From positions 1 to 50,241 of the IMG/VR virus record IMGVR_UViG_3300031608_001091: DNA of 50,241 bases. One strand, 5' to 3'. The notes under the pieces are model-generated. The model was not told the origin of the DNA. It did no database searches and worked only from the letters and a program-made list of their open reading frames with translations. Made by a program: the position numbers and the translations under genes. This DNA is from a virus. Positions 19,503 to 45,125 of this stretch are shown one piece after another. Each line of letters opens with the position of its first letter. Positions within the stretch are counted from its first letter, which is position 1.

Positions 19503-19506
19503 TTCT

Positions 19507-25232: not shown

Positions 25233-25801
25233 ACTTTTCTCCACGAATACTTGTCAAAATACTTCTGTGTATACACACTTATACTGTATTTATTATATAA
25301 CAAGTTAACGTGTTTTCCAGTAGATAACAATTCAGAAAATGGTATCAGTACTGTCTTAATTAGAAACTCTGGTCTATCTTTGTGTGTTATAAAGAATACG
25401 TGTTCTGATTTCCCAGCAACACTTACTAGTTGGTTAGGGTCAACCCCTATACTTTTCTTTAGTTTATCATTTGCCTCAAATAGTATTCCGTCATCTGTTA
25501 ATGAAAGAGTAATATCTGCATCATCTGATGACACTACCTTATGTAATTGATTGTCTTTGTTTCTTCGTTTGATATCAACTCTTGTTTTTATAATCTCATA
25601 CACTAATGGATTATCAGTTCTACTTACTATATAATCAGAGAATTTAAGACTGCCATCGAGGAATGGTGTAATATCTTCAATCTCAAACCATGCAAATAAA
25701 TCTTTAGTGTCTAGTATTTGGTTTGTTATCTGTGATATATTACTGAACCCATCGAAATAAACAGCACGACAAGTATCAGTTTTATGTATAAGACTTATCA
25801 T
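25229..25801 (-). CDS. Unknown protein between glycosyltransferase genes
   Basis: 190 residues, not recognised. Composition is mixed alpha/beta with hydrophobic strands, no cysteine cluster, no signal peptide. The middle region, VVSSDDADITLSLTDDGILF, reads like a beta-strand pair, and the C-terminus (NLLYNKYSISVYTQKYFDKYSW) is aromatic-rich. It overlaps both neighbours by four bases (ATGA). It resembles in size and style the small phage proteins near tail genes, so it could be an assembly or target-recognition factor. Confidence 0.65.
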   Translation of the reverse strand: MISLIHKTDTCRAVYFDGFSNISQITNQILDTKDLFAWFEIEDITPFLDGSLKFSDYIVSRTDNPLVYEIIKTRVDIKRRNKDNQLHKVVSSDDADITLSLTDDGILFEANDKLKKSIGVDPNQLVSVAGKSEHVFFITHKDRPEFLIKTVLIPFSELLSTGKHVNLLYNKYSISVYTQKYFDKYSWRKV

Positions 25802-26655
25802 AATACTGCATCCTCAAGTTGTTTAATCTTGTTACTGTCCATCCAATTCTTTTCTACATAATGGACAGGCAATGTTTGAGTGAAATTACCAATCTTAACT
25901 GATAAGTCATCACTTAATTCGCTAGTTATACTCCGTGTCCAGTTACTCTCTATTTGATTTGTTGGTACATTTTGAATCATACTTTTCATATGAACGAAAG
26001 TAGGAACATCTTTGATATCATAATCACATGTTTGTTCTTCGATATCTAATAATTGAATTGCTAACGCATATGCTACGTCCGCACTCATCCAATTCTGTCC
26101 AATTCCTTTAAGAAACTTATCAAAGTATACGTTCCAATGAACCATAATTAACTCTACCATTCTAAAGAATTCAAAAGTTAATTCTGATTTCTTAAAGTAA
26201 GTAAAGTTACTATAGATGTTTGGTAGATTTAATTGAGTGAACTTCTTTCGGTAGTAGTCACTAGTCACATCTTCGTTACGAAATGTTTTTACATTCGTGC
26301 AACACCAAACATCTTTCTTAGAAAGATAATCCCACCAGTGGTCAACGCTGTTTGTAAATATCATATCACTGTCAAGTATAATAGTTTCATCATAAGGAGT
26401 CATATGTGGATATTTCCACTTATTATGTATCTTCCACTTATCTCCTTTAGCATCGTCATTCCAAGGAATATCAACTATAGCATCAAATACTTTTTTATGC
26501 TTGGCAGTTATTAACTTCTTTGTTTCTTCGTCTACACAGACACATAAATTACTGTTCTCTTGGGTCGCTTTCAAACTAAGAGCAAGAGCATAAGACATTT
26601 CTAAGTAATCAATGTCTTCGCTGTTCTGTGCGATAGTTATATATCCTTTACTCAT
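25798..26655 (-). CDS. Glycosyltransferase family 8-like protein
   Basis: 285 residues. The N-terminal strand ITIAQNSEDIDYLEMSYALALSL and the metal-binding ILDSDMIF (93-100, Asp95-x-Asp97) fit the GT-A fold of GT8-type enzymes, which use UDP-sugars with retention. A later conserved segment, SNFTYFKKSELTFEFF, matches the paralogue at 26648 (WATVFYFKKSELAENLF). It overlaps its neighbours by eight and four bases. Target and donor unknown; the location just downstream of tail-fibre genes fits modification of fibres. Confidence 0.65.
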   Translation of the reverse strand: MSKGYITIAQNSEDIDYLEMSYALALSLKATQENSNLCVCVDEETKKLITAKHKKVFDAIVDIPWNDDAKGDKWKIHNKWKYPHMTPYDETIILDSDMIFTNSVDHWWDYLSKKDVWCCTNVKTFRNEDVTSDYYRKKFTQLNLPNIYSNFTYFKKSELTFEFFRMVELIMVHWNVYFDKFLKGIGQNWMSADVAYALAIQLLDIEEQTCDYDIKDVPTFVHMKSMIQNVPTNQIESNWTRSITSELSDDLSVKIGNFTQTLPVHYVEKNWMDSNKIKQLEDAVL

Positions 26656-27553
26656 CTATTTTCTCCAAATGAGAATGACTCGCATTAACCTTTTCTCCGT
26701 TTGATAAAAAGTCATCAATGAATCTTCCTACTGCTTTCTTATTCATAATATGTAAGTCTGTGTTAGTAAACTTCGATAAGATATGTTCTGTAATTCTTTC
26801 AGCATCTGCACAGTACATTATAATATCACCATGTGAATTTATTCTGTAAATGTCATCAAGGTCGAAACTATTGTTGAGATATTCTATTGGCAACGATGGC
26901 ACGTCAAACGCAACGCTACCATTCAGTATATGTAACGCCATTGAAAATGCAAAGTCATTTCTATATAGACTACCGCTACAGTTATATAGGTAATAATAAT
27001 ACTTATAATTATGTTTTATGTGGTTTATAATAGTGAATAAGTTTTCAGCAAGTTCTGATTTTTTAAAATAGAATACAGTTGCCCAATACATCGGAATACT
27101 AAAGTTATCAAGGTATTCTATGTTCTCTTTATGACGTTCTGATACATCTCGGTATTTACAGTTAATCATTACATCATTATCACTGTCCCATACCTGGTCT
27201 AAAACATTGTTCATAATGAAATAATCACTGTCTATTACCAGAGTTTCGTCATAGGGTGATAGAGCATACACGTCACTTCTGCCCATGTTTTTAAATGATG
27301 CGTATTCTGTTTCACGTGTTGTGTCTTTAAACAATCTTATATTGTCTGGTTGGAATACGTCTGTTACTATAACTTTATCAAAGTAACTATTAATCAAGCC
27401 TTCACTTGCTTCTAGTGTCTCTGTATTAGTTATTAGACATATTTCGTCAAATAAAGACAGACTCTTTCTGGCATAACCAGCACAGGCACATGCCTGTTGA
27501 GCGTAGTCAATGTACCCATTATTCTGGGCAAATATTATAATGCCTCGACTCAT
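26648..27553 (-). CDS. Glycosyltransferase family 8-like protein, paralogue
   Basis: 301 residues. The start GIIIFAQNNGYIDYAQQACACAGYARKSLSLFDEICLI parallels the paralogue at 25798, and the DxD is Asp108-x-Asp110 in LVIDSDYFI. The acceptor side differs clearly (region 180-250), which suggests different sugars or acceptor sites. The ATG lies one base after the stop of the preceding gene. No signal peptide or membrane segment is visible. Confidence 0.65.
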   Translation of the reverse strand: MSRGIIIFAQNNGYIDYAQQACACAGYARKSLSLFDEICLITNTETLEASEGLINSYFDKVIVTDVFQPDNIRLFKDTTRETEYASFKNMGRSDVYALSPYDETLVIDSDYFIMNNVLDQVWDSDNDVMINCKYRDVSERHKENIEYLDNFSIPMYWATVFYFKKSELAENLFTIINHIKHNYKYYYYLYNCSGSLYRNDFAFSMALHILNGSVAFDVPSLPIEYLNNSFDLDDIYRINSHGDIIMYCADAERITEHILSKFTNTDLHIMNKKAVGRFIDDFLSNGEKVNASHSHLEKIDE

Positions 27554-27554
27554 A

Positions 27555-27941
27555 TTAAATCTCTAGTACTTTTTCTATTTTACGTGAACTTCTTAATTTC
27601 TGATAGTCGTGATAGTAATCGTTCACAACTTCGAAATATAGACTTGATACTTCGTCTAGGAATTTTGATGTGTCTTCTATATGAATTGGAATTTCATTCT
27701 TATCAAGTAGAGTTATTTCTGTTTTACCACTAGAAACAACAAAGTTCATAAAAGATATGAGTGATTGGTCAACAGAGAATGAACCACCAGCAGTACTAAA
27801 ACTTAATAAGTTTTGTGTTTTAACTTTTAGATTGTTTTTGTTTAGATTGAAAGTCTTCATTGTATTAGAAAAGTTTAATGCTTTCTCTAACCGCTGTTGT
27901 GCTTCTTGTTCCTGTGATACTTCAGTTGTGTTATCGGCCAT
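27555..27941 (-). CDS. Small acidic protein of unknown function at the tail-gene/sugar-gene border
   Basis: 128 residues, not recognised. The first 20 residues are polar and acidic (TTEVSQEQEAQQRLEKAL), followed by a predicted beta region around residues 40-90 and a C-terminal helix rich in Tyr and charged residues. It has a strong ribosome binding site (AGGAGATAAATTATG) directly preceded by an 8-bp stem-loop. It is the first gene of the unbroken 24-gene run. It may be a small structural or chaperone protein; nothing in the sequence decides. Confidence 0.65.
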   Translation of the reverse strand: MADNTTEVSQEQEAQQRLEKALNFSNTMKTFNLNKNNLKVKTQNLLSFSTAGGSFSVDQSLISFMNFVVSSGKTEITLLDKNEIPIHIEDTSKFLDEVSSLYFEVVNDYYHDYQKLRSSRKIEKVLEI

Positions 27942-27996: not shown

Positions 27997-28974
27997 CTAA
28001 AGTTCAGAAATATGAGAATAATTTGGAGAAGAAAGGTTTACCCCATCTGGTGTGTCTGTTGGTATGAATTCGTCAAAAGTAACAGCCAAATTACCAGCAA
28101 CATAGTCAGTTCCTGTCCAACTTCCAGAATACGGTGGAGTATTCCATACACCTGAATCTGCCGCGTGGGAATCATCGAATGCTAGTTTAATCTCTATATC
28201 AGCAGTTCCTGATAGTTTTGCAGATACATTTAATTGGTTTCCAGAATAATCTCCTGTACCACCTTTTGAATATACAACTTGATATGATGTACTAAACATA
28301 CTAAAGCCATAACCTTCTGTGCCTGCACCCGTAGATGCTTCTGTTATAGAATGCTTTATCTTAACGATAGCAATATTGTCTAGCATTGTTTTCCAATCAA
28401 GGCTTTGTGCGTGAGAGGCATCATGGCCAGTGATTATAGAATCAATTCTAATTTCACCACCAGAATTAAAAAAGTGCCTACGTGCGTCAGCATCAGAGAA
28501 TTGAACTTTCGATTCATAATATATTTGGTTTGCACTAGTCCAGATAGGTGTACCAGGACTACCATTTGGGTCTACGTATGCTTTTGCTGATGATATCTTA
28601 TTTGCCTGTAAGGACATGTAACCCAATGCACTGTTTAGTTTGTTTCCTACTATATTTGCGATATCTGTTGTTATCGTAGGAACTGCTTGGTATGGGTCGT
28701 CTGTTGGCCAGCCAACACTTGACGTGCTGACTGGTGAAAATAGTGGGGTACCTTGATGTCTTCCTGCATATAACATTGAGGTCAAAAGTTCATTCCACAA
28801 TGATGTTGTCACTTCTTTCGTAGCCTTAGCGACAACGAGATGATTTTGACCATATCCCGAATCTGATGTTCCGATACCAACTATGTCGTTGATATCGTCT
28901 GCAAAAGAGTTAAAAATTTTAACTAAATCCTGCTTTGCTGATAAACCTGTTAAATAATAACTCTGTGGTGCCAT
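27997..28974 (-). CDS. Virion structural (tail-fibre-like) protein
   Basis: 325 residues, rich in Gly, Ser, Thr and Asn, with beta-strand style segments and no enzyme motif. It shares architecture with the next gene upstream (28999): an N-terminal helical part with NKLNSALGYMSLQ, then HFFNSGGEIRIDS matching WFAAGGELRVSAS there, then strand-rich ends with SGSWTGTDYVAGNLAV matching GAWSWTGADTVPG. The two look like diverged duplicates. Size and position after baseplate genes suit a short fibre or receptor-binding protein, but no known fibre domain is recognised. RBS GGGAAG precedes the ATG. Confidence 0.65.
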   Translation of the reverse strand: MAPQSYYLTGLSAKQDLVKIFNSFADDINDIVGIGTSDSGYGQNHLVVAKATKEVTTSLWNELLTSMLYAGRHQGTPLFSPVSTSSVGWPTDDPYQAVPTITTDIANIVGNKLNSALGYMSLQANKISSAKAYVDPNGSPGTPIWTSANQIYYESKVQFSDADARRHFFNSGGEIRIDSIITGHDASHAQSLDWKTMLDNIAIVKIKHSITEASTGAGTEGYGFSMFSTSYQVVYSKGGTGDYSGNQLNVSAKLSGTADIEIKLAFDDSHAADSGVWNTPPYSGSWTGTDYVAGNLAVTFDEFIPTDTPDGVNLSSPNYSHISEL

Positions 28975-29927: not shown

Positions 29928-30587
29928 TTAACTAATTTGTATTGTAACTGTGTAATCAATTACAATAGTTCTGTTTGCCGCAAGTAACACGGGATGGAAA
30001 GTTACGTGCGTCATCATTAATGTTTTTGTTTTATCTAAAGCACCACTATTGGTTACTCCAGATAGAAGTCCTATTTCATCAAATGTAAAAGATTCGGCTT
30101 GTGTTGCTGTTGCCGAACTATCACTTGTTGGAATCGTCACTCCCACAGCCGTTGCATATTTTGTGTGACTTACATCAACACTAAATTTTACTTTTGCCGT
30201 GTTATTTGGTACTATTTCCCCAGCCCCCATATCCTCTCCTGGAAAATATACAGTATTCGTTGTTGTCTGTTCGTACGTCGGAACATATAATGAAGCGTTA
30301 CTTGCCGTTATTGCTAGTTGGTCATACGTCGGATAGACTCTAGGAGAACGATAAGATAAAGTAGTAGTTGAGGTGCTACCGCCCTTGCCAAATTGCATCC
30401 AATTAATATGAGGTGATGAGCCAGACGAGTTTACACTCGTTGCTTTACCTGCCATAGCCGAAGCCAAGACATATGCCATATTTCCTGGATGAATCGCATT
30501 TTTCTTTTGTACAAGTACTTCTCCACTCTCTTTATCATAGATTTTGAGTGTACCTACTACTTGTGATTTTATTACGTCTTTAAACAT
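29928..30587 (-). CDS. Probable tail structural protein
   Basis: 219 residues, beta-rich and Thr/Ser-heavy. The N-terminus GTLKIYDKESGEVLVQKKNAIHPGNMAYVLASAMAG followed by INWMQFGKGG is a pattern I associate with virion proteins of marine T4-like phages (a strand pair then GNMA..LA..). It stands directly after the giant tail protein gene, with tandem late promoters in the gap, so it begins a late transcription unit that continues into the fibre and biosynthesis genes. No enzymatic motif. Confidence 0.6.
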   Translation of the reverse strand: MFKDVIKSQVVGTLKIYDKESGEVLVQKKNAIHPGNMAYVLASAMAGKATSVNSSGSSPHINWMQFGKGGSTSTTTLSYRSPRVYPTYDQLAITASNASLYVPTYEQTTTNTVYFPGEDMGAGEIVPNNTAKVKFSVDVSHTKYATAVGVTIPTSDSSATATQAESFTFDEIGLLSGVTNSGALDKTKTLMMTHVTFHPVLLAANRTIVIDYTVTIQIS

Positions 30588-30673: not shown

Positions 30674-33600
30674 TTATTTCTGGTCTTGTAACACTAATGC
30701 TAATGGAGTATCTAGTACAAATATTCTATCATTTTGTGAGAAATTATGTCCCAATGTAGTATATAATGCTCTTTCTACGATATTTAGCGTACCGCTAGTA
30801 TTTTTGTCATACATCATGAACTCTACGTTATCTGGATTACTAATACTTTGTACTGCAATCAATTTCTTATTATTTTTCGAAGCACTTAATTCTTGTGCTG
30901 TCGCTGTGCCTGTCAGTGCAGTCAATATGAATGGACCCCTGGCAGTACCAGTGCCAGCGCCAATACCAGTTGCTGTGAACACTGTACCTACCTTACTATC
31001 AGCCGCACCTACTAATGTAAAGTCTGTTGTTCCTGTTTTAGTCACAGTGTATTCTCTACCGATTACAAATGAACCCGCCGTAATTGTCCAGTTTTCTGAT
31101 AACGTGCCCCAATCTTTAATAGGAACATTATAACCTCTACCATACACATCATACACGTAAAACTCTGTTTTGTCAAGAGTAAATCCTGCTAAGTTTCCGT
31201 CTGATGCATGAATGTCAGCATCTGCTCCACCATTTTTATAATTCTGTATTATGACTACTGAAGACTCTACTGTTCTAGCACTTACTTCGCCAGTATCAAA
31301 TCCACCGGCTACATTTGTAGATGTAGTTCGATATCTTAGTAATTCTCCTTGTTCGTAATCTCCGTCAGCAATGTCTGTATCAGATATACCATCATATACC
31401 ATTTCGGCATATCTACTGGCTTTACCAAAGTCTAAAGTAAGTTTTAGTTTTTCGTCAATAGTTGTGGTTAGTATTGCTTTATCACTGGCTTTGTTTATTC
31501 GTTTAATTTCTCTTATCTTTGCATGATATGGTTTTGTTTCTCTGACGTATTCTAAAATGTCTGCTTCACTATCTCTCTGGTATATTGCATGTTGCTTAAG
31601 TGGTCGGCTATGCAAGTCTAGGTCAAAATAACTTGTCTTAAACAACCAAGAAGGATATGATTTCTCTGTGTATAGATAATCAATCATGCTATAGAAAATA
31701 TTATTAACAAACGAAGTATCGGAATGAGTTCTAATCATATTCATCAATTCTTGTATTTGAATTCCCACAGCATTGTTGTAGTAGTTGTCAAATGCTGTTC
31801 CTGTTCCACTACCTACGCCCGTTGCTGTAAACCTACTACCTGATGAGTTAGAACCTGCGCCAACTAACGTGAAGTCTGTTGTGCCAGTTGTTAGTATTTC
31901 ATACTGTTTACCAATTACAAATGTGCCAGCAGTTTTGGTCTCTGGATATACTAGAGAATCTAATCTAAGACTTATGTTCAGTGAACTCTTGGTTCTATTA
32001 ACTAATTGTAGTTTGCCGTTGTGTTCAAAGTAATATTCATCATGTGTTGGTAACTTTATTTTAAATGACTTTATACCTTTTTCATATTGTTCAATCATAT
32101 CGAACTCTCTAGTATTAGAGAGATACGAGAAGGAAGTAATTTTTTTAAAACTATCATTTAAGTACCAATCACCTAGACTAAAAATAATGTCGTCTGTATC
32201 TATGTACTGCGTATAATTGGAGTACGAAGATAGTAATAGTTTATTACTCATTGCTGAATTTATAACCGCAACAAAGTTATCTCTTGCCGTGTATTTACGT
32301 GTGAACCAATTATCAGTTGTCTCTATTACTTTATAAACTCGTAGTACATCTCCCACAGTCATTGTATGGTCTTGGTTAATTTTTAAAGTATTGCTTTCAA
32401 TAGTCAAATACTGTGCTTCCACCGTCATTCCATTCGTAGTTACTACGATATCATCTACTGTTAGTCCAGTAATAAATTGAATATTATTACTATCAACTGG
32501 CGTGACTATCGCAAAGTTAACATTACTCAATTGCGGTGCTGTAAGTTTTGTAGCATACGTTGTTGATATAGTGATTCCAGAGATAGAGTTTGTTAAGTCA
32601 TCTATGAACTCCTTTGGTATTGGAGTTGACGTGTCTTGTGGTAACATTTTCCAATCAGTATGTTCTTTTTCGATTCCGTCTTCTATTTGATATTCTGTTG
32701 ATGCTGTAATTGTATCACTGTTATATGATTTAGAATTATTACTAATGACTACACTTCTTTTTCCAACTGGTAAGAATTTATTCTTAGGTCCGTCTGCCGC
32801 TAGTAATATTGAGATATCTTTTGCATCTGCGTCTGTTGATGACCAGAAGAAGTACTCTGTTATTTCTTTACCGGCATCTGTGTCGTAATATGTTTTTGAA
32901 TTATATGAAGTTGTAGCCAATGGTAATGTTCTAGATTTTGTCCATTTCTTTACTAGTATCGTAGAACTATCTACTGTTTTGCCCCAATACTTTCTTACAA
33001 AATCAATATTCAAATTACCAGATGCATCGCCATAATCATTATAACGATAATAACGTGCTAGTTCTGTATCCCACCACATTGTGTTTAACTTCTCATCTAA
33101 CCACAAATCATTACTTGTTGTAGTATCATACTTCGCTGGGTCAGTCCACATAACGTAATCTAGTTTAGACATTATTGAGCCTGATATTTTTAAGTTAAGA
33201 GGGTCATATATATGATGTATTGTGAACTCTTCGCCATCTTTTACTATTAATCGTTTCGTTAAATTACTATTAATAACAGTCGCCTGTTTGGCATGAACCG
33301 ATGTACCACTAACTGGATTATAACTTAGTACTCCCCACCCATTCGTATCGTAATTATCTATCCATAACTTACTTGCACTATTCAGTCCAAGGTCAGTTTC
33401 AAATTCAGTTCTAGTACTTCCATTAAATCCAGGAGTATATCTTATAGATTTCCAAAGCATTGCTTTGAAATTCGCACTTGATGTAACATTTGAGTATGTT
33501 AACACTAGTCCTATCTTAGTTAATATTGATGTAGTTGTTCCAGAGAACGACATTTGCACAGTATTATTAGTGAATATCATTCTACCATCACTTGAAATTC

Positions 33601-36600
33601 CCACTACTATATCTGATGCAGAAGTAATTTGGCTAGCAAATTCCAATGCACTTGGACTTGATGATGACGAATTACTATACGTACCCGCTGTTATGCCCAT
33701 GTCAGAAAGAGAGTTTCCAATAATATTACTTGCAACTATGCTCTTCTCTGAACTTGTTATTTTTACTTGTCTGTCTGACTTAACTGCGGTAACTGTTGCG
33801 CCTGAGAATACTTGAGTATTTAAGTCAGATACTATTCTATCAGTGGCATCAATTGCAATCGTAGTGGTTGCAAATCCTAATCTACTCATTGCTCCCGAAG
33901 TTACTTCAACTATATCTAAGTTATGATTTATACTTGTTATCTTAACTGTACCTGTTACTACTGTGGCAGTAACACCAGAAACAGATAACGCATTAATTTG
34001 TGCGACTATGCTATCTGCCGTTGGAGCAGAACTTGTTAGATATGTACCTGCTGTGATTCCTAACTCAGTTAATGCTGTTCCAGAAATAATCATCTGAGTT
34101 CCTGAACTTACTACAGTCATGCGATTATTAGCACTTACTGTCGCCGTGATATTAGTTATAGTAGTCAGGTCTGTTGCTAAATTATCTAGTTTAGAGTCTG
34201 TGTATGCGTTTGTCGTAGATAGTCCCAAGTCAATTAGTGAACCGCCAGTCATAGTTAGTTGTGACACTGATGTTGTCAGTACTAAATTACTTCCAGAAGT
34301 CGAGGCTACAACGCTACTAGTTCCTGAATTAATCGCAATAACAATTGCGGCTAAGTTTGCTCCACTACTTAATGTAATCGTGTCGCCATTAATCGTCAGT
34401 GGCTTAGTAGAAGGCATAACTGGAGAAGCAACTGTGCCAGTGAGACTCAAGTCTGTAATTGTCTTTGTTATTCCATCAATAATAACAGTATTTCCTGTAG
34501 TTAATGTTGAACTTCTTGTTGCTGTTGTAGTATTTGATATAGTGTCTGTTGCACTATATCCCACCGTTACTGTTGTCCCATCGATTGTTACTTGGTCACC
34601 TTGTGTTGAACTAAATGCACCTGTTGTCGTTGCTACTGTTCCAGAGAATGTAACAGTTGTATTAGTGCCATTCTCGACTAATCCAGCATCGTTGTACACA
34701 ACAAAACTTGCTTGTTCGCCCTCTGCCACTATTGAATTTGCAACTGTTCCAAGAATTGATATTCCGGTACTAGTTCCACCTGATGGAGTATAAGTGAAAT
34801 TTGTCCCATCAATCGCAATGATATCACCAGAACTAAACACTGGATTACTGACTGAACCAATTGCTTCTACACCAGAGTTTGTATTAGTAGGAACAAATAC
34901 ACTATTCGTAGTCGTTGAATCTATCTCAACAGTTAGTGGCTCGAAATCTTCTTCAAACACCAAATATTCATGCACTGTGCTTCCACTTACAGTTTTAGAT
35001 CCGTTAGTAGATAACAAATAATATCCTGCAATAATTGGATTTATTTCATCGGCAGATATCTTTAGATAAATTGGTTTAGCAATAGAAGAGGTGCTAATAG
35101 GAGAAGCAGTTCCGATATATAGTTGGTTATCTGATGTTTCACCTACATAACTTATTTCGGCTACTTCGCTGAGTCTTACCACGTCCCATTCTCTTTCTGC
35201 ATCTGATTGTACCCATGCAGTATCTCCTTCATACAAAGATGTTGCTGTCAAAGATGTTAATGAATCATATGTACTTGTTATATAACTTACATCAGATTCG
35301 TTTACATATCCAGTTGTTTTAATTGCTATGTTACTTTTATTGACAACTGGTGTGAACTCTTTAGATATGTCTGTGTATTCTATTAAAAATGGGTCTTGAA
35401 TCATATCACTTACTGTGACATCTTTTGTCATTGTGAATTTTGAGGACTTATGTCCATACTCACTTAGTTTGATTGCCCAAATATCAGAATGAGTTATATT
35501 TTCAAAATCGCCATTGTTGTTTACAATCTTATTAATGCTAGAAACAGTTGATTTGTGTGCCAAGAATCCTTTATAAAATTCCAATTGAGACTCACGTTCA
35601 ATTCCATGATTTGTTAGATACGCTTTTGTAGTATATCCGTAATGATTTGATTTTAACTTATTAATAATAGATAGACCTTGGTCGACTAGGGTGTCTCTGT
35701 AGTGTTGAGTTTCAGCAATCATCGTATCAAAGTTTGGTATTAACTCATCGTTGTGTACGATGTAACCATCAACCGTCATAGTTCCATCCCAATCTATTGT
35801 TCGGTTGCAATCAATTTGCATTCTAAGATTTCTAGTATGTGAATGTGGGTCATATATGACATCTTCATAACTGTCAATTCTGTCAACTACGAATGCGTGT
35901 TCGACATCTCTTATGTCCATCTTCATTCCATAGATAGGAACATTACTTGTAAATGTTAAGGTGGAACCATCTGTGTGAAAGTTAACTTCAGAATTTGGTA
36001 TAAGTCTACCAGACGAATCTACCATACGATAGTAGTTCTTAAAAGTTTCAGTTGCTACACTCGCCACACCGTAATCTGTCTTAAATCTACCACCTGTAAG
36101 TAACGGAGTAAGAGTAATGAAATCTCCAACTTTATTATTTTCTGATTGCCATTCTAAGAATTTGTATAATAAATTTTCCCAATCTACTTGCTCTCCAAAT
36201 TCACTTGAATCTGTAAATTCCCAGCCCACTAAGTTAAGATAATGTTCATAGCCCATAATTAAATGTGCAACATCATCTACCGTATCTAATATATCTCCGT
36301 AATTATAATTCTTTAAAGTGTCATTTACTAATTCGTTATAACCAATTGCTTGAACTTTGTTCGTTGTTGGCCATTCTGATACTGGTTTCCATTCTTTAAG
36401 ATTATCATCGAAGTTTGTAGATGTGTGATTATTAAGACATACATACGGAGCGTTATTCCATAATGTATATGAGTCCATTCTATAGTATTCACCAGATTGC
36501 CAAGGTGTTACTGTAAGTCTGTCGCCCTCAGTTGAGAATGCTTTTTCACCACTTGCTTTGTCCCATCCCATTGCATAAAATGTAGGATTAATTTCATCAT

Positions 36601-39600
36601 AACCGTGAATTCTAAAACCAAACTTATCAACTTTTGGCTGAGATATAAGTGTCCAACTTGCATAATCAAAAGTAATTGCAGCCGCAGTTTCTTTTGCTGA
36701 CACGCCATCTATTTTTCTTTTATAATATTTCCCATCACTAGTGTTTAGGACAACTAGTCCTTTGTAGTAAGTAGATGTATCAGCAAGAGCATAAACTGGA
36801 TGGGCAGCCGCAGTTGACACCTTTTCAACAACAATCGCACTGAAGAATTCGCTTCTATTTGGTACTCCATCATGGACAAATAAGTCAAAATTATCTTCTG
36901 GTAATTCAGTAAATCTACTATTTGATAATGAGTTGTTTTCTGTTTGTAATTTAAAGTTGTTAACAAATCCGCCTAACTTTGAACCCAACTTAAATGAATA
37001 GTTTAGTTTATCTGCGATTACTACTGTATTATTAATTCCTTCATTCTTGTTAGAGTATGATATAATATCTGCTATCTGAGTTTTATATGTGTTCATAATC
37101 TCAAATGGATTCGACAATAACATTAGTAAGAATTCTGCGAAAGCAAATTCACTACTACGAGTCCACGCAAGTTCAACAGGAGAGTTATCTCCGAACTCCC
37201 ATGCCTGGTCTGCCAATGCAATATCACTTGCAGTAAATACACCTCCAAAAAATAAGTTTGCTGGCGTTTTTAAGTTTCCTGAGGCATCGACTGGAACTGG
37301 ACAAGTTAAAGAATTATTTGATATAAGATTATTCCAAAACGCTACAGTTGTGTATGTTGCACCCCAAACCGAATCGAAGTTTGCTGGCTTTTGTGACAAT
37401 TTCATTGCTTTCCAGGGTTCTATTAAAGGTCTATCTGTTCCATAAGCATGTATTAATTGTCCTCTCCAATTGCCACTAAATGTTTCGTTTTTTACTCTAT
37501 AGTTCCATGTTTTGTAATCAGTTACATCATATGATTCATTAGTCAAATTATCTATACTATTTCTCATCATCCACTTCTTAAAGAAAGGATACATGATATA
37601 TTTCTTTTCGGCACTTGAGTAGTCGTTAGTTGCAGAACTATACATTGCATAGTTCATACTATCAATAGTGCTATTTGTGTTGTCTGTTAGATTATTAAAT
37701 ATCAGAGTTTCAAATGCGAGTAATATTGTATCTATTCTATTTGTTCCACCATCCACTAATGGATAAGCAGGAACTAATGAGCCATCATGACCTTTAATAA
37801 ATTTAACTGGAGTGCTATATCCCGAGTCAGTAATAATCTCTGGAACATACGCTGGTCTTATGTTTAATGATGTTGCACTTGGCGGTATGTAAGTTTCTTT
37901 TATATTAGTATAATGTCTGACCGTTATTATATCACTAGATGACCTTGCGGTAGTAAAGTTTATTTCTGTAGCGCCAGAAGATAATGTATAATCTACGTTG
38001 AAACGCTGGATTACATTGTTTAATATCACAACTATATTCTTGTCATATAGAATTGCGTCTGTGAAACTAGGCATTACTTGTTCAGTTGCATTATCAATAA
38101 CTGTTACGTCAAGTTGCTGATAGTGTGCGTGTTTTTCACCAAAGTTTAACATAGTACTATCTCTGAAAATACTCACACTTGTATGTTTTCCGAGAGATAT
38201 AGCACTGATGGCTTCTTCTACGATTTGTAAGTCCGTTTTAGTTGTACTAGAACCGTCCGCTAGAGCCTCAATGACTGTAGTTAAAAATTTATTCTTGTAA
38301 CTGTTGTATGAATTCGATAAAAACTCTGTTCCTTTAATAGGATTATAGTCTTCTCTTGTTAGTGCAAAATATGCCTCTTTAATATCTATCAAGTTAGTAA
38401 CTAGAATACTACCTTTATCTGCGTGTCTTAACTTGTCTGTGTCATCGCCAATATTTCTATAATTGTTTATAGCATCAGCATCACCAGTTAATGTTGGCGT
38501 TGATTCTATTATACGAACAAAGTGTTCATAAACCAGAGAGAATGTCATATCTGAATTTACGTAAGACTTGTTGTCGACATTATACTCAAGTGCAGGATTA
38601 ATCCTCTGAAATACTGTTTTGCCCTCGTAAATAACTGGCGTACTTGTGCAATAATCAACGTATATGTTTCCTGATACCGCTGTTTCTATAGTTATTTTCT
38701 TAGTAGCCTCAGAGTACGTATAGTTTCCTAATTGTTTCTGTCCATTTACATATAAGTCTATTGAATCATAATCTTTAGGAGATTGTAGTAGTTCTATTTC
38801 TGAAATTGTAAGATGGTCACCCACTTCTTGTCTTAAATTTCTATAATCAAACGTAGTAGACATTGTTAGCGACTTGTAACTATTAGTACTCGCATCTGCT
38901 TTCCAATTATATCGTAATGAATCTAGTAAATCTATATTGAATACGTATTCACTTTGAAAATCGCCGGCTTTTAACTTAGGTTTAAATCCCAACTCTGCGT
39001 CTGTTACATAACTTTCACCGATAACATAGTGAAATATTTTTATATCACGTTGATATGTACCAGTAGAATTGTAAGATTTAAATGTTGGCAGTTCCCAATT
39101 TGTGTCACTTAAAGATTTAGAAGTACTCTCTGCACTTAGTTCGATATGTTGGTCAAATTCTATGATTGGTCTTTTTGCCTGTGATATCTCATCAAAGTTC
39201 GCATCTTGTATCAAATCTTTGATATCATCATAGTGATACCAATAATTATTTGTTGACCACCAAGAGCCCGTTCCGTACGTCTTTGTTTTGTCTGTATTGA
39301 TTGTGACGTAATGTTTATTCTCTGAACCAGTTATTGAGGCATGGAATGAAGTTGAAACCCAATAGTACATACTGTAGTTGATAAACTTATCTAAGTCTAT
39401 AGGTAAAGCAACAGTGCGTAATGAACTTTTACTATTGAATAATCTTCTATGGTCATTTGTTAACGCACCTTTATTGTATAGTGCATTAAGTAAATCATCA
39501 TAAAAAACATTATCACTTGCATCTGCATTTGTGAATACGGGTTCTAATCCATAATTATCTCTCGCATATGATTGTTCTGGAAATGAAAGATAGATGTCAC

Positions 39601-39757
39601 TAGTCTTAAATATTCCCTTTTCTTTTCTACCGACAAATGCTTTTGTCTTCTCCATCTCACCGACTGAAAAGGCACGGTCAAGTGTCGTTTCAAATATTGA
39701 TTCTAACTCGCGGTTTTTTAGATGTCCTGGTAAAAAGTCATAAATCTTCTTTGCCAT
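30674..39757 (-). CDS. Giant baseplate/tail structural protein (3027 residues)
   Basis: The largest gene in the window. The N-terminus (IYDFLPGHLKNRELESIFETTLDRAF) starts a mainly helical/beta module typical of giant structural proteins in T4-like marine phages; its position just after the gp6-like gene equals that of gp7 in T4, but homology to gp7 is not visible. Two copies of a phage structural repeat (TGTTDFTLVGA..., FTATGxGxGTGTA) lie at about residues 2609-2660 and 2890-2935. Residues 1650-2100 form a Ser/Thr-rich region with repeats such as LGITAGTY and INxGTSSV-type units resembling flagellin-hook IN motifs. Other strands (VNGQKQLGNYTYSEATKKITI, 330-355) look like immunoglobulin-like folds. 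No enzymatic domain was seen. Likely baseplate periphery and fibre-attachment protein. Confidence 0.75.
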   Translation of the reverse strand: MAKKIYDFLPGHLKNRELESIFETTLDRAFSVGEMEKTKAFVGRKEKGIFKTSDIYLSFPEQSYARDNYGLEPVFTNADASDNVFYDDLLNALYNKGALTNDHRRLFNSKSSLRTVALPIDLDKFINYSMYYWVSTSFHASITGSENKHYVTINTDKTKTYGTGSWWSTNNYWYHYDDIKDLIQDANFDEISQAKRPIIEFDQHIELSAESTSKSLSDTNWELPTFKSYNSTGTYQRDIKIFHYVIGESYVTDAELGFKPKLKAGDFQSEYVFNIDLLDSLRYNWKADASTNSYKSLTMSTTFDYRNLRQEVGDHLTISEIELLQSPKDYDSIDLYVNGQKQLGNYTYSEATKKITIETAVSGNIYVDYCTSTPVIYEGKTVFQRINPALEYNVDNKSYVNSDMTFSLVYEHFVRIIESTPTLTGDADAINNYRNIGDDTDKLRHADKGSILVTNLIDIKEAYFALTREDYNPIKGTEFLSNSYNSYKNKFLTTVIEALADGSSTTKTDLQIVEEAISAISLGKHTSVSIFRDSTMLNFGEKHAHYQQLDVTVIDNATEQVMPSFTDAILYDKNIVVILNNVIQRFNVDYTLSSGATEINFTTARSSSDIITVRHYTNIKETYIPPSATSLNIRPAYVPEIITDSGYSTPVKFIKGHDGSLVPAYPLVDGGTNRIDTILLAFETLIFNNLTDNTNSTIDSMNYAMYSSATNDYSSAEKKYIMYPFFKKWMMRNSIDNLTNESYDVTDYKTWNYRVKNETFSGNWRGQLIHAYGTDRPLIEPWKAMKLSQKPANFDSVWGATYTTVAFWNNLISNNSLTCPVPVDASGNLKTPANLFFGGVFTASDIALADQAWEFGDNSPVELAWTRSSEFAFAEFLLMLLSNPFEIMNTYKTQIADIISYSNKNEGINNTVVIADKLNYSFKLGSKLGGFVNNFKLQTENNSLSNSRFTELPEDNFDLFVHDGVPNRSEFFSAIVVEKVSTAAAHPVYALADTSTYYKGLVVLNTSDGKYYKRKIDGVSAKETAAAITFDYASWTLISQPKVDKFGFRIHGYDEINPTFYAMGWDKASGEKAFSTEGDRLTVTPWQSGEYYRMDSYTLWNNAPYVCLNNHTSTNFDDNLKEWKPVSEWPTTNKVQAIGYNELVNDTLKNYNYGDILDTVDDVAHLIMGYEHYLNLVGWEFTDSSEFGEQVDWENLLYKFLEWQSENNKVGDFITLTPLLTGGRFKTDYGVASVATETFKNYYRMVDSSGRLIPNSEVNFHTDGSTLTFTSNVPIYGMKMDIRDVEHAFVVDRIDSYEDVIYDPHSHTRNLRMQIDCNRTIDWDGTMTVDGYIVHNDELIPNFDTMIAETQHYRDTLVDQGLSIINKLKSNHYGYTTKAYLTNHGIERESQLEFYKGFLAHKSTVSSINKIVNNNGDFENITHSDIWAIKLSEYGHKSSKFTMTKDVTVSDMIQDPFLIEYTDISKEFTPVVNKSNIAIKTTGYVNESDVSYITSTYDSLTSLTATSLYEGDTAWVQSDAEREWDVVRLSEVAEISYVGETSDNQLYIGTASPISTSSIAKPIYLKISADEINPIIAGYYLLSTNGSKTVSGSTVHEYLVFEEDFEPLTVEIDSTTTNSVFVPTNTNSGVEAIGSVSNPVFSSGDIIAIDGTNFTYTPSGGTSTGISILGTVANSIVAEGEQASFVVYNDAGLVENGTNTTVTFSGTVATTTGAFSSTQGDQVTIDGTTVTVGYSATDTISNTTTATRSSTLTTGNTVIIDGITKTITDLSLTGTVASPVMPSTKPLTINGDTITLSSGANLAAIVIAINSGTSSVVASTSGSNLVLTTSVSQLTMTGGSLIDLGLSTTNAYTDSKLDNLATDLTTITNITATVSANNRMTVVSSGTQMIISGTALTELGITAGTYLTSSAPTADSIVAQINALSVSGVTATVVTGTVKITSINHNLDIVEVTSGAMSRLGFATTTIAIDATDRIVSDLNTQVFSGATVTAVKSDRQVKITSSEKSIVASNIIGNSLSDMGITAGTYSNSSSSSPSALEFASQITSASDIVVGISSDGRMIFTNNTVQMSFSGTTTSILTKIGLVLTYSNVTSSANFKAMLWKSIRYTPGFNGSTRTEFETDLGLNSASKLWIDNYDTNGWGVLSYNPVSGTSVHAKQATVINSNLTKRLIVKDGEEFTIHHIYDPLNLKISGSIMSKLDYVMWTDPAKYDTTTSNDLWLDEKLNTMWWDTELARYYRYNDYGDASGNLNIDFVRKYWGKTVDSSTILVKKWTKSRTLPLATTSYNSKTYYDTDAGKEITEYFFWSSTDADAKDISILLAADGPKNKFLPVGKRSVVISNNSKSYNSDTITASTEYQIEDGIEKEHTDWKMLPQDTSTPIPKEFIDDLTNSISGITISTTYATKLTAPQLSNVNFAIVTPVDSNNIQFITGLTVDDIVVTTNGMTVEAQYLTIESNTLKINQDHTMTVGDVLRVYKVIETTDNWFTRKYTARDNFVAVINSAMSNKLLLSSYSNYTQYIDTDDIIFSLGDWYLNDSFKKITSFSYLSNTREFDMIEQYEKGIKSFKIKLPTHDEYYFEHNGKLQLVNRTKSSLNISLRLDSLVYPETKTAGTFVIGKQYEILTTGTTDFTLVGAGSNSSGSRFTATGVGSGTGTAFDNYYNNAVGIQIQELMNMIRTHSDTSFVNNIFYSMIDYLYTEKSYPSWLFKTSYFDLDLHSRPLKQHAIYQRDSEADILEYVRETKPYHAKIREIKRINKASDKAILTTTIDEKLKLTLDFGKASRYAEMVYDGISDTDIADGDYEQGELLRYRTTSTNVAGGFDTGEVSARTVESSVVIIQNYKNGGADADIHASDGNLAGFTLDKTEFYVYDVYGRGYNVPIKDWGTLSENWTITAGSFVIGREYTVTKTGTTDFTLVGAADSKVGTVFTATGIGAGTGTARGPFILTALTGTATAQELSASKNNKKLIAVQSISNPDNVEFMMYDKNTSGTLNIVERALYTTLGHNFSQNDRIFVLDTPLALVLQDQK

Positions 39758-39758
39758 G

Positions 39759-42700
39759 TTATTCGCCTACTAATTCAGATTGTGATAATTGTGTGATTAT
39801 TTTTACATCACTCGAAGTGGTTACTGCCATAAATATTTCATTCAAAGCACAAGAGATACTAAGTAACTTAGTAAACTCATTTGTAGAATATTTAGGAGTA
39901 ATTACTACACTCGAAATATAGTCTCCCAATTCTTTATGTAGGTACGCCGCTAGTTCTGAGAAGTAGAATGTCGCTCCGAAGTCCCAGTTATCAATCGCAA
40001 AATATTCATTTACTTTGGTAGACACTGCGGTTTTTATTTCACTATCGCTGTATCCAACTCCCAATTTCTTAATCACCTTGAACATTGCTTGGTTTTCATT
40101 TTTTGCATACGAACCAAACAAGTATTTAAATTCTACTGGTATATAAGCGATGTGGTCAGATATTGCTGCCTTTGGCTCAATAGTGTCCATTATTTTTGAT
40201 AACTCGTAATTATTTGGAGCAATTGGAGTTGCTGTTGTGAATTTCTTTCCTACCCATTTTTCTACGTTTCTTACGTAATCTGAGCCCAACACATACATGT
40301 CTATGATATTACTTGTGCTTGGGTCTATTCTTTTATTTAAGTCTGCATAATGGTCCCATCTAAAACTTGTGAACTTGTCTTCGACAAAAGTTATTCCTTC
40401 TTTTGGCACGTACGCCACTGTTTGATATAATATCCCGTTGTCTCCTAATGCAGTAAATGTAAAACTTGTATTCCATGCACCTGCTATGCGTTTATACCAC
40501 ACACTAGTTGTTGTGTTAAACCACAATGTAGCAGTCGCTGGAACGCTTGAATCTGGCACTCCTGCACTTGCTTGTGCAGCCGCAACTGCAAACTTTGATG
40601 CTCTATCATATGTTATATTGTCTTTAGTATAACTTTCCATTATTATCTGGTTACCAGAAGTAACAGAAAGCATGGAGTATGGATGGTCGTCTGTATCGCC
40701 TGCGAATAGTTTTACTTTCGAATTATCTTTATATCCAGCACCAGTCAAGTAGTCGTCATATACATATGAAGATATTGACTTGTATGTTGTATTCGTTGAA
40801 TTGGCAACTGTTGCTAACTCGAATGAGGCTTTAACTCTAACTGAGAAGTTGGCAATGTCAGACAGTGTTGTTGCTGTTCCGACAAACACGTCAATGAGGT
40901 CGTTTACAGAGATTGCGTATGTCCAGAAAACAATTTTATAAGTTGTACCCACTGTGTTTGTAACAGTTACGTGGGCGGCATCGATAAACGCTCCAGTGTC
41001 AGTTCTAAGAAGTATGTTACTTGTGGTAAGTGCAGTTGCACTTACTATTGAGAATTCTCCATAAGCATACTGCTTAAATTTAATATCGGTGTCTAGTATG
41101 TTAATATTTAACTGGTTCTGATTTCCAGGTGTACTTGCATCTGTATCTACATGTTGAAATGGCAATACAAATTTATATAATGATGTGCCAGTATCATATG
41201 TCGTTGTAATTTCATTTTGTTCTACAACATCACCCTCATCGATGAAAACAAATTTACTACCCGTTGCTGCCGCACTAAAATACGATGTCGATGGTTTTCC
41301 TTTAAAGCCAAACGTAGTCAAATCAGAAGTACTAATACTTGCAAAACTACTATCTGCGTTAGAAGAGTCTTCGGCACCATCATAATTTATAGTGATATTC
41401 ACATTTGATAAATTTGTGGCAGCAGATGCTGTTACTGTACTATCTAGTCCTATCGTTGATGATAAAGATGTTATAGTACTTAAGTCATCAATTCTCAGAG
41501 TAAGAGTATCAATTCCGTCGCCATCGGCTAAGTCTGTTGCATTTCCAATAATCTTTCCAGCCGCAATGGTTGGCGAATGTATATGTGCTGGTAATAATGG
41601 ATATTCTAATCCATCTGGTGATATAAGAGAGTGCGTATAAGTCGGTGTTGTTACCGCGGTATTTGTATCGATAAATGTGTACGTCTGTCTAGCACCAGTA
41701 TATTGATATATTGCTTTAAACTCAGCGCCTGTTGAATTATATGTAACCGCACTTGTTACTGGAGCCTGTCCTATAGATACTGTTGGCGTGTTTGTAGTTG
41801 ACGAGTAAGAACTATCTGTAGTTCCATCTTTATAGTTTAAGAATATAGCATCTCTCATTGATAAATTAGTTTCGTTATCAACCACATCAGTAGTGTTTCC
41901 ATAGAAGAATTTAACTTGGTCTCGACTTTCAAATGCTATCTTTTTGCCAATAAGTTCAGCAATATATTCTGATTCATTGTCTCTAATTCCAGAACTATAG
42001 TTAAACACGACATGCACTTGTGACGGAGTGGAACCTGTATGTAGTTGCCATTCCCAGACATTTGCTTGTCCAGTTTTTAATGCATATTTTATAGTAAACG
42101 TTGTCTCTGTCACACTATCAATTTTAGTTTTAATTGAAGTTACTTCTGCTTCAGTGAACTTTGTTCTTAGTCCACGCACTACATTAGCGATAGTGCCATT
42201 ATCTGGTATTACTTTATTCAGTGTATAATCTTTTGAACCATCTGCCTTGACTGCTCCTACTTTTTGAACTTTTGCCCAAGTTACTATATCATTCGCACTT
42301 AACTTAAATGTATCGCCTTCGAATATTGTGGTTACGTTTACATCTATGTTAGAATTAATAACCATCTTGTTAGTCGTAGTCACCGTGTACGGTCTAGCAA
42401 CCGATACATTTACACTAACGTTACTACTATACTTGTAGAAAAAATTATTTAAAAGACTTGGATGTTTTATTGCTTTAGTAAGTTCATTTCTTATAAAGTT
42501 ATCGCTCTTACCCTGTGCTTTGTTGTATCTTAGTGGAATTTTTACTGTCTCACTTTCAACAAATAGGCTCCCATCAGAACCTGTCACACTTAAATTAGAA
42601 TGATGACCTAGTACATCGTCAGTTTCAAAGAAACGAGAGTTGCCTGCAAAAGAAGTGTTCACTGCTTTTACTTTTTTAACAATGTTACTGCCAAGAGTTA

Positions 42701-44027
42701 ATGGATATACATTATAGTCCTGTGCATTGACCATTCTGTCCTGAGTATAGTAACTTCTTGGAGCAATTCTACGTACACTTGCGTATGTTTCGCCTGCATA
42801 GTTCTCAGTAAAATCTCTAGTACTTGATAATGTAAATGTTAGTTGATATACTCTATTATCATTGCCTACATATGGAATTGTGATTATTGCATTTGCAATA
42901 TCATCTGCGTTTACAGAGAAGTTATCATTATCTACTCGTCTGTACCATGTTCTGTATCCACCACTTGCGGCATTGCCAAATATTCCATCTGGATAATTTA
43001 ATTCAATTGCATTATTGTCTGCTGTAGAAATACTCACTATGTCACCATTACCAGTTCGTAGGGCGTTATAGATTGCAGTTTCACGTGTATTATTATCTAC
43101 CTTACTAACACTTGATACATATCCTCTATTTGAATCTATTCTTTGTACCCAAACATCACTATTGGAGACGTTAACATCATTTATTTTTTCTCTTCTATTT
43201 GAAATAGTTGTGGTATAGTTTGCATCACTAAACTGTAATTCGCCCGAAACTGCATAGACAAAGAAACCAGTTCTGTCACTAGCAGAACCCAAGTTATCAT
43301 TTCTGTTTATAAGTGTAAAGTTTTTAGATATATTTGGCTCATCTTCGTATACTTTTGTTGTTTTCTTATCCATTAATACACGAACTGCTTCGAAGTTTCT
43401 GTTTGCGCCTGCTATGGAAGTAGTGAATGTGTAGTTTACATTTTTAGAGGCAGTGTCTTCGTTTATTTCGTACAAAGAGTGTTCTACATCTGCAATTGTC
43501 AATTCAGAAGATGGATTTTGAATTTTAGTATTTCCAGCAAATGATGAATTTAAAACAGTGATAAAGTTTTCATACCAATCTGCATTATTGCTGTCGTTCC
43601 AGTTGATAGTTTTTCCTGCAAGAGATACGCCCTCATTATCTAGTACCGCTTCAGTAGTAGATAAACTTGAGATTTTCATAAATCCCTTTGCATTGACTGG
43701 TCTAGTCTTATTATATCCGAGTGATTTGGCCATCTGTAGAACACTAACTCTGCGTTCAGCAGTATCCATGAAATTCTCTCTAGTGTTCATGTCTAGTCTG
43801 AACGACAAACTGTGTCCTAAGTATGCAACTAAGTCTAAGATTGCAATGAATTCAGAACTTGCTACGAAATCATTAAATTTCTCAGGATACGTCTTTGCTG
43901 TATAATCTAAAAGTGCTGTTCTAATTGTGTCAAAATCATATGCTTTAAGGCTAATATTGGAAAATGCTGTATATACTGCTGTCCAACTTTCACTTGCGAA
44001 TAGATTGTCTGTACGTTCTTGGCTCAT
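39759..44027 (-). CDS. Baseplate wedge protein, gp6-like
   Basis: 1422 residues, about twice T4 gp6 (660). The N-terminal hallmark is clear at residues 25-105: YDFDTIRTALLDYTAKTYPEKFND, then EFIAILDLVAYLGHSLSFRLDMN and a helix with SVLQMAKSLGYNKTRPVNAKG. The C-terminal wedge segment (KLGVGYSDSEIKTAVSTKVNEYF and DFGATFYFSELAAYLHKELGD) is also typical. The extra length is in the middle, in beta-rich, Thr/Ser/Asp-rich sequence (around residues 500-1150), suggesting inserted decoration domains. gp6-type proteins form the ring that joins baseplate wedges. A single C separates its stop from the giant protein gene. Confidence 0.85.
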   Translation of the reverse strand: MSQERTDNLFASESWTAVYTAFSNISLKAYDFDTIRTALLDYTAKTYPEKFNDFVASSEFIAILDLVAYLGHSLSFRLDMNTRENFMDTAERRVSVLQMAKSLGYNKTRPVNAKGFMKISSLSTTEAVLDNEGVSLAGKTINWNDSNNADWYENFITVLNSSFAGNTKIQNPSSELTIADVEHSLYEINEDTASKNVNYTFTTSIAGANRNFEAVRVLMDKKTTKVYEDEPNISKNFTLINRNDNLGSASDRTGFFVYAVSGELQFSDANYTTTISNRREKINDVNVSNSDVWVQRIDSNRGYVSSVSKVDNNTRETAIYNALRTGNGDIVSISTADNNAIELNYPDGIFGNAASGGYRTWYRRVDNDNFSVNADDIANAIITIPYVGNDNRVYQLTFTLSSTRDFTENYAGETYASVRRIAPRSYYTQDRMVNAQDYNVYPLTLGSNIVKKVKAVNTSFAGNSRFFETDDVLGHHSNLSVTGSDGSLFVESETVKIPLRYNKAQGKSDNFIRNELTKAIKHPSLLNNFFYKYSSNVSVNVSVARPYTVTTTNKMVINSNIDVNVTTIFEGDTFKLSANDIVTWAKVQKVGAVKADGSKDYTLNKVIPDNGTIANVVRGLRTKFTEAEVTSIKTKIDSVTETTFTIKYALKTGQANVWEWQLHTGSTPSQVHVVFNYSSGIRDNESEYIAELIGKKIAFESRDQVKFFYGNTTDVVDNETNLSMRDAIFLNYKDGTTDSSYSSTTNTPTVSIGQAPVTSAVTYNSTGAEFKAIYQYTGARQTYTFIDTNTAVTTPTYTHSLISPDGLEYPLLPAHIHSPTIAAGKIIGNATDLADGDGIDTLTLRIDDLSTITSLSSTIGLDSTVTASAATNLSNVNITINYDGAEDSSNADSSFASISTSDLTTFGFKGKPSTSYFSAAATGSKFVFIDEGDVVEQNEITTTYDTGTSLYKFVLPFQHVDTDASTPGNQNQLNINILDTDIKFKQYAYGEFSIVSATALTTSNILLRTDTGAFIDAAHVTVTNTVGTTYKIVFWTYAISVNDLIDVFVGTATTLSDIANFSVRVKASFELATVANSTNTTYKSISSYVYDDYLTGAGYKDNSKVKLFAGDTDDHPYSMLSVTSGNQIIMESYTKDNITYDRASKFAVAAAQASAGVPDSSVPATATLWFNTTTSVWYKRIAGAWNTSFTFTALGDNGILYQTVAYVPKEGITFVEDKFTSFRWDHYADLNKRIDPSTSNIIDMYVLGSDYVRNVEKWVGKKFTTATPIAPNNYELSKIMDTIEPKAAISDHIAYIPVEFKYLFGSYAKNENQAMFKVIKKLGVGYSDSEIKTAVSTKVNEYFAIDNWDFGATFYFSELAAYLHKELGDYISSVVITPKYSTNEFTKLLSISCALNEIFMAVTTSSDVKIITQLSQSELVGE

Positions 44028-44040
44028 AATGGTCTCTCTA

Positions 44041-44397
44041 TTATTCTCTGTCTAAATCGATACTTAATTCTACTGGCTCATTTGTAGGCAGAATTGCAAG
44101 TCTCAACATAGCGTTTATTGTATGGTCCGAGTCTGTAACTTCTACACTAACAAAGGTACATCTTGGGTCATCGTTTATAATATTCGTTAAATCTTCTTTA
44201 ATTAACTCAGTAGTTTCAGCAGTTAGTGGCTCAAACATCATTTCGTGTATAATTGACCCATAAGTAGGCAACATCACACGTTCACCCCTACGAGTCATGA
44301 TATGATTCATAAGGTCTTCAATCACCAAGTCTTTATCATGTAACTCGTGATTTATTGCTTTTAAATTTTTGGTACTGAACCCTGCGAATGTTGGCAT
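44041..44397 (-). CDS. Baseplate wedge protein, gp25-like
   Basis: 118 residues, typical for gp25/lysozyme-like baseplate proteins. DLVIEDLMNHIMTRRGERVMLPTYGSIIHEMMFEP (23-57) is the signature segment; the remainder alternates helix (ELIKEDLTNIINDDPRC) and beta strands (VSVEVTDSDHTINAMLRLAIL). It joins the sheath-baseplate interface with gp6. A late-promoter-type octamer lies upstream at 44431-44438. The gene is the first of the gp25-gp6-giant gene unit. Confidence 0.85.
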   Translation of the reverse strand: MPTFAGFSTKNLKAINHELHDKDLVIEDLMNHIMTRRGERVMLPTYGSIIHEMMFEPLTAETTELIKEDLTNIINDDPRCTFVSVEVTDSDHTINAMLRLAILPTNEPVELSIDLDRE

Positions 44398-44534: not shown

Positions 44535-45125
44535 ATGCCAAATTTAGTACCAATGGTCGTTGACCAGTCAGCAAATGGAGAACGCAGTTACGATATTTTC
44601 TCTCGTTTATTAAAAGAAAGAGTTATATTTCTGACTAGTGAAGTGAATGATTACCAAGCAGATTTGATTTGTGCCCAGTTATTGTTCTTAGAAGCAGAGA
44701 ATTCAGACAAAGATATACATTTTTATATCAATTCTCCTGGTGGTGCTGTTACATCTGGAATGGCAATATATGATACCATGCAGTTTATAAGTTCGCCTGT
44801 TGCTACTACAGTAATGGGACAAGCATGTAGCATGGGTTCATTACTTGCACAAGCGGGCGCTGAAGGTAAGAGGCATGTACTACCAAATGCTCGTACAATG
44901 ATACATCAACCTAGTGGTGGTGCTGGCGGACAGGCTACTGATATGAAGATTCAAGTTGATGAAATAATGAAACTGAAAGAAAGATTGACTCAAATCTATG
45001 TGAATCATAATTCTGCTGGAAAAACATTCGATGAGTTGACTGAGGCAATGGAGCGAGATAACTTCATGTCAGCAGAAGAAACTGTTGCGTATGGGTTAGC
45101 AGATAAAGTTATAGATAAGCGTTAG
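44535..45125 (+). CDS. clpP: ClpP-like ATP-dependent protease proteolytic subunit
   Basis: 196 residues, the full length of bacterial ClpP. The catalytic triad is Ser99 ([11 protein letters not shown]), His124 (TMIHQPSGG) and Asp175 ([11 protein letters not shown]). The oligomer-forming region [21 protein letters not shown] (64-84) and the C-terminal YGLADKVI are conserved. No propeptide is obvious. It works only with a hexameric unfoldase in cells, and none is in the window, so host ClpX or ClpA would be needed. It is inserted opposite to the surrounding baseplate genes and its stop overlaps the lysozyme-like gene's stop by four bases. Possible roles: host protein turnover in infection or structural protein processing. 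Confidence 0.9.

Follow-up and report, generated by a model that had tools for sequence, protein, structure and literature searches.

The DNA analyzed here (hereafter, the window) is a stretch of 50,241 nucleotides comprising positions 1 to 50,241 of the IMG/VR record IMGVR_UViG_3300031608_001091, a fragment of the genome of an uncultured virus that, from its gene set and relatives, we infer to be a marine, T4-like myovirus. The subjects of the analysis are a giant protein encoded in this window and a short module, denoted GTTDFT, that is present in it in two copies. The initial annotation, made from the nucleotide sequence, had described a 3027-residue tail protein at 30674-39757; the open reading frame (ORF) of 3027 aa is indeed found there and lies on the minus strand, a point on which that annotation was silent. 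The module spans about 46 residues and follows the pattern AGxFVIGxxYxIxxxGTTDFTLIGAxxNxVGTxFTATGVGTGTGTA. All the evidence presented below is computational. The principal features of the locus are the following (E values of the module hidden Markov model, HMM, are listed in the order of modules 1 and 2):

30674-39757, minus strand: giant baseplate protein gene, in the gp7 position of the wedge operon (phrog_10938, gene order, jumbo-phage orthologues)
31790-31933, minus strand: GTTDFT module 1, residues 2609-2656 (HMM E value 5e-26)
30938-31081, minus strand: GTTDFT module 2, residues 2893-2940 (HMM E value 1e-25)
33458-34540, minus strand: flagellin-IN/FliD-D2-like array of about five units, residues 1740-2100 (Pfam in relatives, profile comparison, predicted fold)
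35318-39757, minus strand: conserved framework, residues 1-1480 (26-28% identity to the orthologues of jumbo phages PA5oct and Atu_ph07)
36338-36805, minus strand: CBM5/12-like stretch, residues 985-1140 (Pfam CBM_5_12 in relatives; weak profile match to the chitin-binding domain of chitinase A1, 1ed7)
39759-44027, minus strand: gp6-like baseplate wedge protein, 1422 aa (phrog_10646, E value 4.6e-218; homologues with GTTDFT modules in loci L018 and L034)
44041-44397, minus strand: gp25-like baseplate wedge protein
45757-46983, minus strand: gp5-like baseplate hub protein
29928-30587, minus strand: 219-aa protein, conserved and of unknown function, immediately downstream of the giant gene

The giant protein itself has no match in Pfam or the PDB, and a megablast search of cultured phages with the region returned zero matches. 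Comparison with PHROGs linked six stretches of the protein to phrog_10938, annotated as "virion structural protein" (E value 1.9e-177), and a search of the viral contig collection yielded 44 loci encoding relatives. Upstream of the giant gene and in the same direction are the genes for the gp5-like hub, gp25-like wedge and gp6-like wedge proteins, so that the giant gene, which follows gp25 and gp6, has the gene position of T4 gp7. The order hub-gp25-gp6-giant is identical in PA5oct, where the giant protein, gp355, has been detected by mass spectrometry. From this position, we take the giant protein to be the baseplate wedge scaffold that stands in the place of T4 gp7, and the gene order together with the virion localization of the PA5oct orthologue bears out its original designation as a tail protein. 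Between the hub and gp25 genes, at 44535-45125 on the plus strand, there is an ORF that reads as a ClpP-like protease.

The two modules of the window align with a local score of 170, compared to a maximum of 58 among 1000 shuffles, and are identical in 29 of 45 residues. Across 26 aligned homologues of the giant protein, modules are found at ten sites, close to window residues 219, 358, 667, 1025, 2454, 2609, 2790, 2808, 2892 and 2974, with a tandem pair at site 2790. At each of these sites, other homologues align straight across the empty position, and many homologues have no module. In a tree of 2860 framework columns, from which the modules were removed, every module site is confined to a single clade and several clades are module-free; given this distribution, about ten module gains in the giant gene represent the simplest account. 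Gains separate even close relatives: loci L016 and L006 are 89.5% identical at the DNA level and yet differ by a 312-bp in-frame insertion that carries the tandem pair, and two in-frame insertions, of 171 and 156 bp, distinguish L018 from L008. Copies occupying the same site in different viruses show a mean identity of 0.72, compared to 0.59 for copies at different sites, and a recent duplication of the two window modules was rejected on these grounds. Hence the phrase "duplicated GTTDFT modules" used in the initial annotation is apt as a description but not as an account of origin, the two copies being separate, clade-shared insertions of a widespread module. In L006, site 219 is occupied by a divergent variant (L006:8600-8850, GTTTNNEWNSIAGT...YAVGDTFTAV...GTGTA), which suggests a second module subfamily.

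A pattern scan followed by tblastn confirmation detected at least 562 copies of the module in viral contigs; the scan is biased towards copies that have the GTTDFT or FTATG core and therefore underestimates module diversity. Among 84,980 prokaryotic species genomes there are 16 module loci, mostly in metagenome-assembled genomes. Examination of 215 loci showed 299 module copies (204 unique) in 196 ORFs, all in frame and all at least 161 aa in length. After masking of the modules, the host ORFs formed 52 clusters without detectable mutual similarity. PHROGs assigned a functional label to 31 of the 50 representatives scanned, and 30 of these 31 are virion proteins, including the major capsid protein, head-tail adaptor, head closure protein, internal virion protein, tail sheath, gp8-like wedge, lambda-J-like tip, fibres, spikes and unspecified virion structural proteins; a weak PHROG match to a DNA polymerase family (E value 0.075) was set aside as chance. 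Whole-record searches of four relatives of about 90-99 kb detected modules in the giant gene only, with the addition of gp6 in the record of L034; the gp6 protein of L018 contains modules as well. A tblastn search of cultured phages gave three partial matches with single modules and zero with a synthetic consensus, which is not evidence of absence because the low-complexity filter probably masks the Gly/Thr tail. A literature search for the motif strings of the module produced no match.

Several individual occurrences deserve description. In L040 (18932-20593), an ORF of 554 aa that lies downstream of the giant gene, in the position of the homologue of window 27997-28974, contains four tandem GTTDFT-type modules. 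The major capsid protein encoded at L193:2088-3497 (phrog_283, E value 1.1e-39) carries a module at residues 259-306. In an isolate contig of Limnohabitans radicicola (L136:1-12144), the module lies within a giant repetitive ORF of more than 4000 aa that has the look of a bacterial adhesin.

What is conserved in the module is the protein and not the DNA, because codon sharing between sites is barely above chance: at identical residues, copies from different sites use the same codon with a frequency of 0.48, compared to 0.42 expected by chance. The exception is the tandem pair of L016, with a codon identity of 0.88. For copies at the same site, the ratio of nonsynonymous to synonymous substitution rates (dN/dS) is about 0.1-0.5 among pairs with finite dS, pointing to purifying selection on the module at the sites where dS can be estimated. 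Most of the near-invariant positions hold Gly, an aromatic residue or Thr, with variable positions in between, a pattern that fits a fold with a variable surface.

These measurements bear directly on the possibility that GTTDFT is a selfish, in-frame mobile coding element, inserting randomly and observed only in places that the protein can accommodate. Such an element would produce many independent sites in one gene, insertions into 52 clusters of hosts, in-frame events between close relatives and the tandem copies of L016 with their codon identity of 0.88. However, a selfish element should be conserved as DNA, contrary to the codon comparison, and the low dN/dS at several sites and the almost exclusive residence of the module in virion proteins among labelled hosts also speak against it; no associated recombinase was identified, without a systematic search for one. 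Furthermore, a selfish element should also turn up in enzymes and between genes, and no copy in a non-virion gene or intergenic DNA was clearly identified in 141 and 215 loci, as far as a protein-pattern search with 19 unlabelled hosts can tell. Protein-level conservation and low dN/dS thus make a mini-domain that is under selection and spreads by recombination more plausible than a selfish element, which we consider decidedly improbable. A combined scenario, in which the module is an intragenic mobile coding element of phages, autonomous or assisted by a recombinase, that enters particle-protein loops in frame and is subsequently retained as an adhesion or stabilizing patch, also appears quite unlikely.

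No Pfam family matched any of 20 modules, and a profile search of the PDB with the module detected no convincing homologue. In an AlphaFold2 model of the C-terminal part of the giant protein (mean predicted local distance difference test score, pLDDT, 58.8), both modules show the identical order of secondary structure elements; Foldseek and VIA comparisons of this model produced matches mainly to residues 2396-2478, a phage beta-domain, and not to the modules. A purely structural role, with the modules serving as loop fillers that stabilize neighbouring baseplate or capsid subunits and have no outside ligand, would be in line with their presence in connectors, sheath and capsid in addition to adhesion proteins, and extra sheath domains are proposed in PMC9230969 to stabilize the virion. 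Nevertheless, the module is sporadic among close homologues, so assembly does not require it, and the bacterial hosts L128, L136 and L138 resemble secreted surface proteins, which fits an external role; in L128, the module seems, by reading of the sequence, to break up a fibronectin-III-like domain. We regard an exclusively structural role as a possibility on the unlikely side.

Collectively, these observations lead us to the view, to which we would assign a probability of roughly 0.6, that GTTDFT is an uncatalogued promiscuous module that has been repeatedly inserted in frame into loops of unrelated particle proteins, where it serves as an accessory surface patch. The module would be a compact, beta-rich mini-domain spliced into loops without disturbing the host protein, and phages would spread it among particle proteins by recombination. 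We infer surface exposure, recombination as the route and a binding role, and propose, by analogy, that the module acts like phage immunoglobulin-like (Ig-like) domains, adhering weakly to glycans on the cell surface or to other material, or that it stabilizes neighbouring subunits and thereby the virion. Several points weigh against this view. One labelled host (L178:4791) matches an amidase family only, the host labels come from PHROGs and are missing for 19 of the 50 scanned representatives, and the module fold is predicted at moderate confidence only (pLDDT about 55-87), no solved structure being matched over the module. In addition, a profile of 8 giant-protein sequences did not match T4 gp7 in the PDB, and because no such homology was detected, the gp7 label of the giant protein is positional only.

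Apart from the modules, the giant protein appears to contain two older additions. The N-terminal half matches jumbo phages at about 25% identity, and a profile of the N-terminal framework detected no convincing homologue in the PDB except for the weak chitin-binding match. Pfam CBM_5_12 is matched by 12 of 12 relatives (best E value 2.6e-4); the window copy scores 9.9 bits (E value 0.98), under the cut-off of 26.2 bits. This CBM5/12-like stretch would be compatible with a glycan-facing baseplate.

The second addition is the IN array, with five units of about 60 residues each at residues 1786-2095. Profile-profile comparison links units 1 and 2, 1 and 4, 2 and 4, and 2 and 5 with probabilities of 89-95% (E values of 3e-6 or lower), and in the window sequence alone units 2 and 4 (z 9.4), 2 and 5 (z 6.2), and 3 and 4 (z 5.6) exceed every shuffle; these repeats and the GTTDFT modules of the initial annotation are confirmed. 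Among 19 relatives of this region, 6 match Pfam Flagellin_IN (PF07196; best E value 1.5e-6), the window copy does not, and a profile search of the PDB with the array gave no convincing homologue. The AlphaFold2 model of the segment has a pLDDT of 83-95 across residues ~1740-1910; its top Foldseek match is FliD of Helicobacter (E value 1.2e-4), and VIA aligns it with Vibrio FlaA (Z 11.4) and Escherichia coli FliD (Z 9.3) over 81-83 residues, above unrelated rows, the best superposition having a root-mean-square deviation of 1.9 over 83 residues. The flagellin-hook-like repeats noted in the initial annotation are therefore corroborated by the motif in relatives and by a predicted fold of the FliD/flagellin D2 type. 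The same model also aligns to phage tail sheath domains (PhiTE and cyanophage A-1(L), Z 7-8), and flagellin-D2-like folds may be recurrent in virion proteins. Because the array is nearly ungapped in the alignment of 26 homologues, being present in every member of the clade, and is undetectable in PA5oct gp355 and Atu_ph07 gp180, its most likely origin is an old insertion that became fixed in the clade.

The Ser/Thr-rich character ascribed to this stretch was confirmed by measurement: Ser and Thr account for 26-42% per 100 residues in residues 1601-2100, compared to roughly 11-26% elsewhere in the giant protein. The initial annotation went on to propose that the giant Ser/Thr-rich protein is the substrate of a run of glycosylation genes; the acceptor sites would lie in the IN array or the GTTDFT modules. 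This idea has to be weighed against the composition and conservation of the downstream region:

22438-27941, minus strand: downstream block with two glycosyltransferase (GT)-like genes, recognized by reading, and a radical S-adenosylmethionine (SAM) protein at 22438-24249; retained whether or not a relative carries GTTDFT modules, and not a component of the module system

Glycosylation occurs on flagellins of Campylobacter and Helicobacter that have similar domains. In every relative with enough downstream sequence, the block comes directly after the tail genes (for the GT-like genes, window 25798-27553 on the minus strand, at roughly 73-93% identity), and both the IN array and the block, including the radical SAM protein at 22438-24249, are shared within the clade and were not detected in PA5oct or Atu_ph07. 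However, this co-occurrence is a single evolutionary contrast, and the two GT-like genes have no convincing match in Pfam. Given this lack of a match and the presence of a radical SAM enzyme, "glycosylation run" describes only part of the block. Moreover, conservation of the block is equally high, at roughly 70-95% identity, in module-bearing and module-free relatives (L010, L012 and L023; L006 has the divergent module only), and the modules therefore do not constitute a dedicated substrate of the block; a dependence of the modules on the block was rejected, and we consider glycosylation of the giant protein by these genes unlikely, the Ser/Thr-rich IN array being the remaining candidate substrate. 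The radical SAM protein has neighbours: at 14092-24249 on the minus strand, six proteins (starting at 14092, 16236, 17639, 19507, 21035 and 22438) show radical-SAM-type cysteine motifs by eye, and for two of the three tested there is support from Pfam Radical_SAM (E values 2.5e-7 and 1.1e-4). A peptide- or sugar-modification cluster tied to the tail genes is possible.

Returning to the view of GTTDFT as a promiscuous inserted module, the giant protein would be a baseplate wedge scaffold whose loops acquired surface modules at three evolutionary depths, namely, the CBM5/12-like stretch shared with jumbo phages, the flagellin-IN array fixed in the marine clade and the sporadic modules of about 46 residues. 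A mini-domain that occurs in hundreds of environmental phage contigs and in most kinds of particle proteins, and that has no Pfam family, would amount to a new common currency of virion evolution, and its positions would provide a map of permissive loops in which virion proteins tolerate insertions. If the module binds something, it could represent a general adhesion strategy of aquatic phages, and the clean pairs of empty and filled sites make its function testable.

The closest known counterparts of the giant protein, PA5oct gp355 and Atu_ph07 gp180 (3857 and 4449 aa), share with it the position beside gp6, the orthologous framework of residues 1-1480 and parts of the C-terminus but differ in that neither the IN array nor GTTDFT modules are detectable in them. 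The IN array resembles Flagellin_IN (PF07196), FliD D2-D3 and flagellin D2 in the motif of its relatives and in predicted fold; unlike the flagellar proteins, it is embedded in a phage baseplate scaffold, and the GTTDFT module is a separate entity. Rickettsia palindromic elements are short in-frame insertions in many coding genes, as is GTTDFT, which, however, is conserved as protein and not as DNA and has labelled hosts that are almost all virion proteins. The mosaicism of phage protein fragments described in PMC10684548, where tail and baseplate proteins are hot spots of domain shuffling, is similar in this respect, but that work treats catalogued ECOD domains, and the passages of it consulted here make no mention of the module. 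Finally, the nearest analogy to the module is offered by phage Ig-like domains (Fraser et al. 2006, cited in PMC10684548 and PMC9230969), which PMC9230969 describes as promiscuous, sporadic and dispensable for assembly, with a proposed role in weak binding of surface carbohydrates in tailed phages. GTTDFT is likewise promiscuous in unrelated virion proteins and sporadic in close relatives. Judging from sequence comparison, it is not filed among the Ig-like domains because none of the 20 modules produced an Ig-like Pfam match, and it further differs in its length (about 46 compared to roughly 80-100 residues), in its Gly/Thr-rich signature, in its absence from Pfam and in its insertion within loops at ten sites of a single protein.

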